NCBI RefSeq assembly: GCF_003966735.1
Contig: NZ_AP017378.1
Location: forward strand, 2,810,905-2,874,904
DNA length: 64,000 nt
Direction: 5' to 3'
DNA from: Desulfovibrio ferrophilus
Lineage (GTDB): Bacteria > Desulfobacterota > Desulfovibrionia > Desulfovibrionales > Desulfovibrionaceae
Shown here: one piece after another, positions 58,185 through 61,620 of the stretch
Layout of the letters: each line of letters begins with the position of its first letter
Position numbering within the stretch: the first letter of the stretch is position 1
Position numbers and translations under genes: made by a program
Notes under the pieces: generated by a model
Told to the model about the DNA's origin: nothing
The model's database searches: none
The model's input: only the letters and a program-made list of their open reading frames with translations

Positions 58185-59300
58185 ATGAAACCGCTTTCCA
58201 TCATCATCTGCATACTGGCCATTGCCTGGTTATTTCTTGCACCTGATGTCTGCCGGGCAGAGCAACCTCCTTCCCCTTACATGACCGTCAATGAGTTTTT
58301 GGATCTCCACCCCGAACAGATGCGGGTGATGGATGAATTCCAGCAACTCGTGGCAGCGCCAGGCACGGCCATCCACCATAGCGTACAGCAACAGCCCGTC
58401 AAAATTGCCTTTGTCTATCCCGGACTTCAAGTCTCGGATTACTGGATGCGCAGCCTCAAATCCTTTCGCAACCGGATGGATGAAGTTGGCATCAAATATC
58501 AGCTCAGTGAATATTTCTCCAAGCCCGTGGTGGACACACGGCTCCAGCAAATGCAGCTCAAGGAAGCATTAAAAAGCGACCCTGACTATCTCGTTTTCAC
58601 ACTGGATGCCATGCAGCACAGGCATCTGCTCAGCCGCCTGATTACCAAGGGCCGCCCCAAGATCATCCTCCAGAACATCACCACTCCACTGCGCATGTGG
58701 GAAGGAAAGCAGCCCTTTCTCTATGTGGGCTTTGATCACATCATCGGTTCCAGAATCCTGGCCGACTATTTCCTGTCCAAGACCCATAACGGACAATACG
58801 GCCTGCTGTTCTTCGGACCAGGCTATGTCAGCGACATGCGCGGCAAGACCTTTGCGCGCTTCATGGAGCAAGGACAAGGCCCAAGTCTGGCTGCGGCCTA
58901 CTTCACTGACGGCAATCAGGAAAAAGCCCGCAAGGCCACTCTGGCTATCCTTGAAGAACACGACATTGCCTTCCTTTATGCCTGTTCCACTTCGGTGGCC
59001 CTCGGGGCCATCGACGCCCTGCGCGAAACCGGAAAGACAGACCAGGTAATGATCAATGGCTGGGGAGGCGGCAGCGCCGAACTTGAAGCCATACTGGCTG
59101 GCGAGTTGGACGTCACAGTCATGCGCATGAACGACGACAATGGTGTGGCCATGGCCGAGGCCATCCGCCTGGATGCTGAGGGCAAACCGGAGCTTGTCCC
59201 CACGATCTATTCCGGTGATTTCGTACTGGTGGAAAAGGGCATCTCACCCTTGGACATCGAACAACTCAAGGCTCGTGCCTTCCGCTATTCAGGCAGGTAG
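58185..59300 (+). CDS. luxP: Periplasmic autoinducer-2-binding protein, LuxP type
   Basis: The 371-residue protein begins with a signal peptide (about 1-25, cleavage near CRAEQ) followed by a two-lobed periplasmic binding domain. It resembles Vibrio LuxP along its whole length: VYPGLQVSDYW near 77, ILQNITTP near 161, VGFDHIIGSR, GYVSDMRGKTF near 213, ACSTSVALGAIDAL near 266, NGWGGGSAEL near 291 and VMRMNDDNGVAMAEAI near 312. The residues I recall as contacting borated AI-2 in V. harveyi LuxP (Gln77, Ser79, Trp82, Asn159, Arg215, Thr266, Trp289, Arg310) align with Gln82, Ser84, Trp87, Asn164, Arg219, Thr269, Trp293 and Arg314 here. GGAGG lies ten bases upstream of the ATG; an ATG 36 bases earlier is an alternative. 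The downstream kinase starts four bases after the stop. Confidence 0.9.
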   Translation: MKPLSIIICILAIAWLFLAPDVCRAEQPPSPYMTVNEFLDLHPEQMRVMDEFQQLVAAPGTAIHHSVQQQPVKIAFVYPGLQVSDYWMRSLKSFRNRMDEVGIKYQLSEYFSKPVVDTRLQQMQLKEALKSDPDYLVFTLDAMQHRHLLSRLITKGRPKIILQNITTPLRMWEGKQPFLYVGFDHIIGSRILADYFLSKTHNGQYGLLFFGPGYVSDMRGKTFARFMEQGQGPSLAAAYFTDGNQEKARKATLAILEEHDIAFLYACSTSVALGAIDALRETGKTDQVMINGWGGGSAELEAILAGELDVTVMRMNDDNGVAMAEAIRLDAEGKPELVPTIYSGDFVLVEKGISPLDIEQLKARAFRYSGR

Positions 59301-59304
59301 AACT

Positions 59305-61524
59305 ATGGCGTCCCCCCGACAGCAAAGTCTGTCCTCCCTTCTCGGGCTCTATCTTTCCGCAACCCTGGTCATTTTTGCGACGGCCTTACTGATATGGACC
59401 TACGATACCGCCATCAAGGCCGTTAACGCCCAGCTTCTTCTCGATTTTGACCAACGTTTTACCATTGCCCGTAACGTCCTTACGCACAGGCTGGATCTCA
59501 TCAATGCCAACCTGAGCCACATCGCTGTCTCGGACAGGGTTCTTTCAAAAATCCATTCCGGAAAAAAGGCCGCCACGGAGACTGAACTTGGCCGTGTGGT
59601 CTGGGATCAAACCGACTCCTCTCTCGATATTTTGTTCATGGCAACGGCAGAGAATAATACAATATGGGCCGACGCCAGTGCCCCCTTTCTTGATGTGTCC
59701 CCTTTCCTGCCATTAATCGCCGAACACAAGCAGAGCCTCGCTCCTTCCGGGGCTGTACTGCATTTGCAAACCAATAACCGTTCCCTGACCATGCTCGTGA
59801 GCGCCGTTCCCCTCGTCCGACAGGACACGGGCAAGGTGATTGGAACGCTCTTTGGTGGAATCGTTCTCGGAGACAACTTCACCCTTGTGGAAGGCATCCG
59901 CTCGAGCACGGAATCCCGCGAAATCATACTGCTTGAAGATGGTCGCATCCTGGCCTCCACTAGCCTTGAAGACAGTGCAGCGACCAGGGAAATCCGGGAA
60001 CTCGGAAAGCGAGTCATACAGGAAGACTTTGTGCGCCTGCCAGGAGAGCTCATTGCTTCTTTCAGGCCCCTTGCCCTGCCCTCGTTTCCGGCACCATTGG
60101 TCTGCGGCATTGCCATTGCCGATCTCACCCCCACCAGCATCACGAATGCATACATGCACAAGGGCGCCTTCACCATTACCCTGTCCATTGTCTTCTTCCT
60201 GGGAACAATCCTGCTTATTCATCGTGTGACCCGGCCATCTCTGAACAGACTTCTGGACTACACGAACAAAGTCCGCTCAGGAGACACCCAGGCCCGTTTC
60301 CAGCCCGTACGCATCAATGAACTGAACATCGTGGGCCAGGCCATGGAAGAAATGGTTGCCAAACTCCAGGCTTCCCAAAGCTATGTGGAAGGCATCGTCA
60401 ACTCCATGCCATCGGTCCTCATCGGTGTGGACCATTTCGGCGTCGTCACCCTTTGGAACGATAAAGCTGCTCAAGCCTCTGGAAAAATTGCTGATCAGAT
60501 CAAAGGAAGAAGGCTGGACGAAGCTTTTCCCGAACTTGCCAGTGACATGGAAATGATTCTGGCCTCCATCCGGGAAGGCAAGGTTCGCGAAATACATAAG
60601 CGGGTGCGCAACAAAGATGGAATCGCCATCTATGAAAACGTGGTGGTCTACCCGCTGGCCGTTGGTTACGACGGCGGTTCCGCCGGTGCCGTGGTGCGGG
60701 TGGATGACGTGTCTGAGCGAGTGCGCATCGAAGAAATCATCGTTCAGACCGAGAAAATGATCTCCGTGGGAGGCCTGGCCGCAGGCATGGCCCATGAAAT
60801 CAATAACCCCTTGGGTGGCATCCTACAGGGTGCCCAAAACATTGAGCGACGCCTCTCCCCCGACCTCACGGCCAATATCAAGGCCGCCGAGGCCCAGGGA
60901 ACCACTCTCGAAGCTGTACGCGGCTACATGCTGGACAGGGGATTGCTCAGAATGCTCGACGGCATCAGGGACTCAGGTGAACGTGCCGCCAAAATCGTAC
61001 GCAACATGCTCAATTTCAGCCGGGGCAGCGAGTCCCGGCGCAAGGTCTGTGACCTCAATGCCCTTGTGGATCATGCTGTGGAGCTGGCCTCCAGCGATTA
61101 CGACCTGAAGAAGAAATATGATTTCCGCCGGATCGATATCCAACGACAATTTCACCCCGAACCAGTGACCATCTCCTGCACAGAGATGGAGATTGAGCAG
61201 GTTGTGCTGAATCTGTTGCAAAACGCTGCCTATGCCATGGCTGACTCGGACCAGACTGACAATCCACCTCGCATCATTCTGCGAAGCCGTCTGGAACCAG
61301 GATTTTCCGTGTTTGAAGTCGAGGACAACGGTCCGGGCCTGAGCGAAGACGTTCGCAAACGCATCTTCGAGCCCTTCTACACCACCAAACCTCCGGGGCT
61401 CGGGACTGGATTGGGCCTCTCGGTATCCTATTTCATTATCACCCAGAACCATGGCGGCACCTTCAGCGTGGAGTCCGAACCCGGCAAGGGCGCCAAATTC
61501 ATCATCAAGCTTCCGGCCACCTGA
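59305..61524 (+). CDS. LuxQ-like membrane sensor histidine kinase (no receiver domain)
   Basis: The 739-residue kinase has a transmembrane helix at about 11-32, a periplasmic PDC-like sensor at about 33-285, a second helix at about 286-306 and a HAMP region to about 355. A PAS domain follows at about 362-475, then HisKA with His497 in GMAHEINNPLGG and an HATPase domain (LNLLQNAAYAM near 633, VEDNGPGLSE near 671, GTGLGLSVSYFI near 702). It follows luxP by four bases, so it is the likely partner that reads ligand-bound LuxP in the periplasm. Vibrio LuxQ is a hybrid kinase with a receiver domain; this protein ends after the ATPase domain, so the phosphate must pass to a separate regulator not seen here. 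A bidirectional terminator follows. Confidence 0.88.
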   Translation: MASPRQQSLSSLLGLYLSATLVIFATALLIWTYDTAIKAVNAQLLLDFDQRFTIARNVLTHRLDLINANLSHIAVSDRVLSKIHSGKKAATETELGRVVWDQTDSSLDILFMATAENNTIWADASAPFLDVSPFLPLIAEHKQSLAPSGAVLHLQTNNRSLTMLVSAVPLVRQDTGKVIGTLFGGIVLGDNFTLVEGIRSSTESREIILLEDGRILASTSLEDSAATREIRELGKRVIQEDFVRLPGELIASFRPLALPSFPAPLVCGIAIADLTPTSITNAYMHKGAFTITLSIVFFLGTILLIHRVTRPSLNRLLDYTNKVRSGDTQARFQPVRINELNIVGQAMEEMVAKLQASQSYVEGIVNSMPSVLIGVDHFGVVTLWNDKAAQASGKIADQIKGRRLDEAFPELASDMEMILASIREGKVREIHKRVRNKDGIAIYENVVVYPLAVGYDGGSAGAVVRVDDVSERVRIEEIIVQTEKMISVGGLAAGMAHEINNPLGGILQGAQNIERRLSPDLTANIKAAEAQGTTLEAVRGYMLDRGLLRMLDGIRDSGERAAKIVRNMLNFSRGSESRRKVCDLNALVDHAVELASSDYDLKKKYDFRRIDIQRQFHPEPVTISCTEMEIEQVVLNLLQNAAYAMADSDQTDNPPRIILRSRLEPGFSVFEVEDNGPGLSEDVRKRIFEPFYTTKPPGLGTGLGLSVSYFIITQNHGGTFSVESEPGKGAKFIIKLPAT

Positions 61525-61586: not shown

Positions 61587-61620
61587 CAAAGTCCACCCGC
61601 CAGAGGGCAGGTGGACTTTG
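61587..61620. terminator. Bidirectional terminator after the kinase gene
   Basis: CAAAGTCCACC (61587-61597) pairs perfectly with GGTGGACTTTG (61610-61620). It lies between the + strand kinase and the - strand DUF1992 gene. Confidence 0.7.

Follow-up and report, generated by a model that had tools for sequence, protein, structure and literature searches.

A 64,000-nucleotide stretch of the Desulfovibrio ferrophilus genome (contig NZ_AP017378.1, positions 2,810,905 to 2,874,904; hereafter the window, whose own numbering is used for coordinates) carries on its forward strand a luxP-like gene followed by a histidine kinase gene. Judging from the sequences, both genes are intact, and the pair most likely serves a bacterium that listens for autoinducer-2 (AI-2) through a receptor of the LuxP type and a LuxQ-type sensor mounted on a local kinase; the ligand binding, the direction of regulation, the partner and the role are what we infer from these features. 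Overall, we regard a two-gene AI-2 receptor on a local kinase, in a bacterium that probably makes no AI-2, as the best explanation and a likely one, and its receptor part is, on the sequences and predicted structures, very probably a genuine receptor of the LuxP–LuxQ-sensor type. A first-pass annotation had already read the genes as such a pair in a bacterium other than a vibrio, with borated AI-2 as the probable ligand, and the LuxP match and the LuxQ sensor found by Pfam uphold it. LuxP outside the vibrios is itself in print (PMC2561040, PMC5187520; papers are cited here from excerpts, by PubMed Central number).

The predicted AI-2-binding protein

The luxP-like gene (58185..59300, + strand, ATG to TAG) encodes a predicted periplasmic AI-2-binding protein of 371 residues, in which residues 1-25 (58185..58259, + strand) form a probable signal peptide; its cleavage site was judged by eye, and the model has an N-terminal helix at residues 3-17. 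In a phmmer search against Protein Data Bank (PDB) chains, LuxP matched residues 32-370 with an E-value of about 2e-104, and the best non-LuxP chain had 2.4e-9. The protein is 49.6% identical to Vibrio harveyi LuxP over 353 positions. The eight pocket residues that the first-pass annotation had listed (span 58428..59126, + strand) all fall in the matching columns of the V. harveyi protein: Gln82, Ser84, Trp87 and Asn164 in those of Gln77, Ser79, Trp82 and Asn159, and Arg219, Thr269, Trp293 and Arg314 in those of Arg215, Thr266, Trp289 and Arg310. Trp289 of V. harveyi LuxP we take to be an AI-2 contact. The other seven are given as hydrogen bonding with AI-2 in the structure 1JX6 (PMC9687752).

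These positions are strongly conserved. Across the 94 LuxP sequences compared, Gln82 is kept in 91 and replaced by Glu in three, and the other seven pocket residues never vary, while 97% conservation is reached by 13% of all LuxP columns. The conservation of Asn164 and Arg314 is partly built in, because both lie in the scan patterns that found most of the sequences, and the other six pocket residues form the less biased set. The AlphaFold2 model (pLDDT 91.7, from a 39-row alignment) has AI-2-bound LuxP (1jx6) as its closest structure, with a root-mean-square deviation (rmsd) of 1.3 Å and a TM-score of 0.97 by target length; structure prediction had been proposed in the first-pass annotation as a check, and it agrees. 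Given so close a match and identical residues, the pocket side chains would be expected to face the cleft. Sequence and model thus show a binding protein with a complete borate–AI-2 pocket, for which AI-2 binding itself is predicted.

Could the ligand be a sugar, such as ribose or allose, and the pair a sugar-sensing two-component system? The protein can be assigned to the Pfam family Peripla_BP_4 and has weak similarity to ribose- and allose-binding proteins, and the fold matches listed for its model include a fructose-sensing hybrid system (2x7x). Nevertheless, we consider a sugar unlikely. The roughly 50% identity and 1.3 Å fit to AI-2-bound LuxP stand against 14-22% identity for the non-LuxP chains among the 50 fold matches listed. 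Moreover, the eight AI-2 contacts are kept, including the equivalents of Arg215 and Arg310, which have been tied to borate–AI-2 binding (PMC3794749), and the partner kinase carries a LuxQ sensor.

Is the pair a decayed or recently acquired, functionless Vibrio luxPQ? LuxP is rare in the phylum, matching in two of 395 genomes at an E-value of 1e-40, its own genome included. Against this, both frames are intact, the pocket is fully kept, and a second species of the genus retains the pair (75% identity for LuxP, 65% for the sensor and 77% for the transmitter). Furthermore, in the LuxP phylogeny, also among the checks proposed earlier, the present protein falls outside the supported Vibrio clade, on which ground we rejected a recent transfer from Vibrio. 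A functionless remnant is scarcely credible. The deeper branches of the LuxP tree are too weakly supported to point to a source for this LuxP.

A LuxQ sensor on a different transmitter

The kinase gene (59305..61524, + strand, ATG to TGA) encodes 739 residues. In Pfam order, the protein comprises the LuxQ periplasmic sensor (PF09308, residues 54-230, 59464..59994; 76.5 bits against a cut-off of 25.7, E-value 3e-21), a HAMP linker (residues 304-356, 60214..60372), a PAS region hit by three overlapping PAS models (residues 361-474, 60385..60726), HisKA with an insertion, seen by Pfam and in the alignment with paralogues (residues 490-574, 60772..61026), and HATPase_c (residues 627-738, 61183..61518), all on the + strand. 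The putative phospho-acceptor, His497 in the motif MAHEINNPL (60793-60795, + strand), was chosen by analogy. The six PDB chains closest to the model of residues 1-300 (pLDDT 88.2) are all LuxQ periplasmic domains, with TM-scores of 0.80-0.83 by target length.

Beyond the sensor, the protein departs from Vibrio LuxQ. Both have a PF09308 sensor of the same fold followed by HisKA and HATPase domains, whereas Pfam finds no Response_reg domain in the present kinase and V. harveyi LuxQ (locus L166) has a receiver. The score against the NCBIfam LuxQ equivalog NF041947 (135.9 bits) lies below the cut-off of 1200. The transmitter is 56-64% identical to those of eight kinases of the same genome and 47-55% to those of LuxQ-sensor kinases of six other bacteria, with 23-32% for the other eight LuxQ-sensor kinases compared (30% for a kinase of genus g7, 23% for V. 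harveyi LuxQ). In a 52-row transmitter tree it falls into a supported group (SH-aLRT 98) together with its paralogues, three kinases of genome G203 and other kinases of the Desulfovibrionaceae, and the LuxQ-sensor kinases from those six other bacteria branch elsewhere. The transmitter trees are "quick" trees that, of the LuxQ-sensor kinases, took in only those with this transmitter type, Vibrio LuxQ being left out. The approximately unbiased (AU) test rejected uniting all eight LuxQ-sensor kinases with this transmitter type in a single clade (p-AU 2e-7); it was run after inspection of the tree on a group defined by the sensor domain.

The transmitter and the sensor thus have different affinities, which implies recombination between sensor and transmitter, or conversion of the transmitter, in this lineage. 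Only the periplasmic sensor is specifically LuxQ-like, and the transmitter comes, in all likelihood, from a local kinase family of the Desulfovibrionaceae. A Vibrio-type LuxQ that lost its receiver was rejected, since the transmitter belongs to another family. Hence, of the first-pass description of a LuxQ layout up to the ATPase domain, the periplasmic sensor stands and the transmitter does not; the stated lack of a receiver is correct. The distances of LuxP and of the LuxQ sensor are correlated across 35 pairs (r 0.79; none of 5000 permutations as high), which pairing and simple common descent alike would give.

AI-2 production

Does the bacterium make the signal that it would sense? The proposed luxS search gave no match in its genome, which is 99.98% complete, while the search control was positive in five of 14 named genomes. 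The genome encodes S-adenosylhomocysteine (SAH) hydrolase, and the SAH hydrolase route frees homocysteine without AI-2 (PMC6022435). From the missing luxS match and the SAH hydrolase together, the organism appears to be a listener and not a maker of AI-2, a reading of the gene content that we hold with good confidence.

Of 199 genomes of the family, 16 have LuxP, 17 the LuxQ sensor and 11 LuxS. LuxP and the LuxQ sensor occur together in 14, always as adjacent genes, and the sensor partners in these 14 are receiver-less kinases. Half of the 16 LuxP-bearing genomes have LuxS and the other eight have none; LuxS occurs without LuxP in three.

Solitary genes were also seen. In genus g7, L066, L071 and L079 (genomes G156, G092 and G047) keep a LuxQ-sensor kinase with no LuxP in the genome at an E-value of 1e-20, and the sensor there may act by itself or together with a different binding protein; G047 carries luxS. 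In genus g4, LuxP genes occur in L080 (8913-10064) and L081 (7918-9024), in genomes with no LuxQ-sensor match. HlyIII-type and SNF-type transporter genes lie near them (SNF by Pfam in L080 only), and they resemble the published case of Dde_3311.

LuxP partners across bacteria

We examined 80 LuxP loci. They are the best of 316 LuxP-like places that a scan with two patterns, containing Asn164 and Arg314, picked out in a collection with one genome per species. The loci span Pseudomonadota, Thermodesulfobacteriota, Campylobacterota, Bdellovibrionota, Spirochaetota and one Cloacimonadota bin (L094 and L162 belong to genomes G002 and G073). A LuxQ-sensor gene adjoins LuxP in 76 of them, the exceptions being L143, L165, L172 and L157, the last cut by a contig end. 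The sensor profile draws on 19 proteins, namely the window's own and 18 encoded in these loci. Pfam reported PF09308 in all 35 proteins scanned, namely the window's and those of 34 of the 76 loci; 19 of these 34 had matched earlier, as had the gene of L094.

Receiver, GGDEF, EAL and SpoIIE domains in the loci were called with profiles built from the proteins of this study. By these calls, 22 of the 25 Vibrio loci have a kinase with a receiver and three are split or sensor-only. The 55 non-Vibrio loci comprise 46 with a classified output (22 GGDEF-EAL, 18 kinases without and five with a receiver, one SpoIIE), four cut by contig ends, one with a sensor only and four with none. The receiver-less form is therefore usual among non-Vibrio kinase partners (18 against five), and the "simplified circuit" of the first-pass annotation finds no support as worded. 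On the 80-row LuxP tree, the output type switches at least 10 times.

The 22 GGDEF-EAL cases (L106-L110, L113-L116, L119, L122-L126, L129, L133, L146, L147, L155, L156 and L167), from marine Gamma- and Alphaproteobacteria, have the LuxQ sensor fused directly to GGDEF-EAL, with a GG[DE]EF motif in 21. In L095 (6209-9378), the sensor is fused to a SpoIIE phosphatase; a DUF6272 gene comes next, then a small gene with no Pfam match, and AI-2 input to a partner-switching system may be at work. In L103 (8925-9755), a phosphorylase-superfamily gene (PNP_UDP_1) follows luxPQ, which recalls the pfs gene reported beside Marinomonas luxP (PMC2561040).

Of the 80 loci, 50 entered a luxS survey (48 of 53 non-Vibrio and two of 25 Vibrio); L105, L109, L123, L137 and L142 were left out as truncated or near-duplicate, and L094 and L162 were not counted. 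Both Vibrio controls have luxS, as do 23 of the 48 non-Vibrio genomes (one by a partial match), and 25 gave none, some of these being metagenome bins of unstated completeness in which the absence is unsure.

A candidate output

How would the kinase signal onward? The claim that the pair does the same here as in Vibrio is unlikely to hold downstream, because the kinase lacks a receiver that could feed LuxU, and the strongest candidate partner is an orphan response regulator with a single domain, encoded in the same genome (G000:C1:1491851-1492243). Signalling through LuxU and LuxO could call on a stand-alone histidine phosphotransfer (Hpt) candidate in the genome, an open frame of 125 residues, and on sigma-54-type response regulators recognised by motif, LuxU and LuxO not having been searched for by name. 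A kinase without a receiver, however, has nothing with which to hand phosphate to an Hpt protein, its transmitter is only 23% identical to that of V. harveyi LuxQ, and another type of regulator is linked to kinases of this type. We judge the LuxU–LuxO route quite improbable.

The candidate emerged from the loci in which response regulators co-occur with luxPQ, another check proposed at the outset. By profiles, no histidine kinase lies within about 7 kb on either side of it. Two loci, from Pseudodesulfovibrio MC-06 (L097) and from a Desulfatibacillum bin (L096), have a gene for a single-domain response regulator after luxP and the kinase gene; their kinases are two of the six other LuxQ-sensor kinases with this transmitter. 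The L097 genome has a single kinase of this transmitter type at an E-value of 1e-60, and its regulator finds the candidate as the outstanding match in the D. ferrophilus genome (38% identity, 1.2e-22; next match 2.7e-13). For the regulator of L096, identity to the candidate is 43%. Relatives of the candidate occur in 41 of 149 family genomes. Their context was read in the 30 best-scoring loci, one of which is the organism's own; in seven of the 29 others, from four genera, the regulator's immediate neighbour is a kinase with this kind of transmitter (48-63% identity). A spirochaete kinase of this type likewise adjoins a regulator of the candidate's kind. By guilt by association, this orphan is the best-supported output, and we give it about even credence.

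The eight same-genome kinases that share the transmitter (L002-L009, G000:C1) have no directly adjoining REC gene by profile. One of them has a REC gene three genes off, beside another kinase, and two shorter matches of the same transmitter exist (L010, L011). The eight orphan kinases may converge on one regulator.

The main target might instead be another regulator, for example one controlling cyclic di-GMP (c-di-GMP). In L065 (9372-17979, genus g7), luxPQ faces an opposite-strand gene for a response regulator with GGDEF (Pfam), together with an open reading frame (ORF) of 1,670 residues; eight other g7 loci have an ORF of 303-317 residues at the equivalent place. A c-di-GMP output of luxPQ is possible in that genus. 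The 22 GGDEF-EAL partners among the 55 non-Vibrio loci point the same way, and the orphan regulator has a GGDEF/EAL gene and a REC gene as its neighbours. By contrast, no such gene adjoins the present pair, and the orphan's relatives adjoin kinases of this type. A different main target is a serious prospect, somewhat short of even.

Several observations weigh against a listening receptor that acts through the orphan regulator. The structural matches put the sensor's identity to Vibrio LuxQ at only 16-21%, and its LuxP-contact surface is putative. Routes to AI-2 other than LuxS have been proposed (PMC7584622), and in the family two genomes have LuxP with no LuxQ sensor and three the sensor with no LuxP. 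The candidate gene lies 1.38 Mb from the pair. In 11 of the 29 regulator loci, from two genera, the neighbour is a REC-bearing kinase of another type, and in another 11, the two closest relatives among them, no kinase lies within 1.5 kb. The regulator beside the spirochaete LuxQ-sensor kinase L170 is of another type (24% identity to the candidate), and the L099, L101 and L104 kinases of this transmitter type show no adjoining regulator.

Locus and neighbourhood

The kinase gene begins four bases after luxP (gap AACT, 59301..59304, + strand), as first noted, which suggests a single transcript. Upstream lie genes for DUF116, RsmB and a xanthine/uracil-type permease, and downstream, on the opposite strand, genes with DnaJ-C28, PfkB and ParB domains (all by Pfam). 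No ABC transporter gene was found among the neighbours scanned by Pfam. A cognate regulator next door was considered and rejected, as none of the six neighbouring ORFs scanned encodes a response regulator. With neither kind of gene beside it, the pair looks like a small two-gene operon. A terminator-like hairpin 3′ of the kinase gene (61597..61614, + strand) is weak, six such sites occurring in the region against a shuffle mean of 3.7, and a promoter scan of the region gave two sites against 2.6 in shuffles, with no excess.

Relation to published systems

LuxP in Desulfovibrio, also in luxS-negative genomes, was noted in 2008, when recognition of the AI-2 of others was called conceivable (PMC2561040). 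That excerpt describes Dde_3311 as a LuxP in a luxS-negative genome with no associated luxQ homologue and judges an AI-2 role less realistic; the present LuxP shares with such reports its occurrence in sulfate reducers and differs from Dde_3311 in that a PF09308 kinase directly follows the gene. A 2016 study (PMC5187520) reported LuxP in D. piezophilus, D. hydrothermalis and D. alaskensis and, from LuxP, LuxS and weak LuxQ matches covering 31% of the query, inferred a V. harveyi-like system in Desulfovibrio. LuxP DFE_2651, which may be the present gene, is listed for Desulfovibrio ferrophilus IS5 (PMC9659907). To V. harveyi LuxP (1jx6, 1zhh, 2hj9) the likeness extends over identity, the eight contacts, the fold and the gene order before a sensor kinase; the difference is that the present LuxP lies outside the Vibrio clade and in a genome with no luxS match.

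In the luxP operons of Neptuniibacter and Marinomonas, a signalling gene with a PAS domain has been described after luxP, and the Neptuniibacter gene product was called a PAS-containing transcriptional regulator (PMC2561040). In Neptuniibacter caesariensis MED92 (L129), we find a partner with a LuxQ sensor (PF09308 by Pfam) and GGDEF-EAL by profiles. Among 115 LuxQ-periplasm architectures, 112 were given as kinases and one as "GCD", presumably a c-di-GMP enzyme (PMC4822843). A 2025 survey of 267 LuxP proteins, three of them shown to bind AI-2, treats LuxP as serving transport (PMC12268683), and a 2020 text has LuxP "present only in Vibrio spp." (PMC7584622). The latter also covers AI-2 reception outside Vibrio by LsrB, a different binding protein with about 11% identity to LuxP, and by the dCACHE receptors (CahR), membrane proteins that bind AI-2 directly. 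In the open-licence literature searched, we found no description of LuxP with the LuxQ sensor as one module that serves differing outputs.

Proposed mechanism and implications

Signal reception: LuxP would close on borated AI-2 released by neighbouring bacteria, and the LuxP–LuxQ-sensor complex would then rearrange. Sulfate reducers live in mixed marine biofilms, with borate and AI-2 producers at hand.

Signal relay: HAMP and PAS would pass the change to the recruited transmitter and shift its balance between kinase and phosphatase. Phosphate would go directly to the orphan regulator, with neither an internal receiver nor LuxU in between. That regulator is possibly common to the eight paralogous kinases; if it is shared, AI-2 would be one signal among several that feed a common relay.

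More broadly, LuxP and the LuxQ periplasmic domain may form a portable AI-2 input cassette that has been joined repeatedly to diverse outputs across several phyla. Here the cassette would feed AI-2 into the relay of eight sister kinases sharing an orphan regulator, and the luxS-less carriers (25 of 48) may only listen; the available sequences leave this proposal, to our mind, evenly poised. The loci examined argue that LuxP as a rule works with a membrane sensor of the LuxQ type (76 of 80), whose output varies by lineage, in contrast to both the Vibrio-only and the transport views. These loci make it testable whether bacteria that make no AI-2 sense their neighbours by it, and for what.

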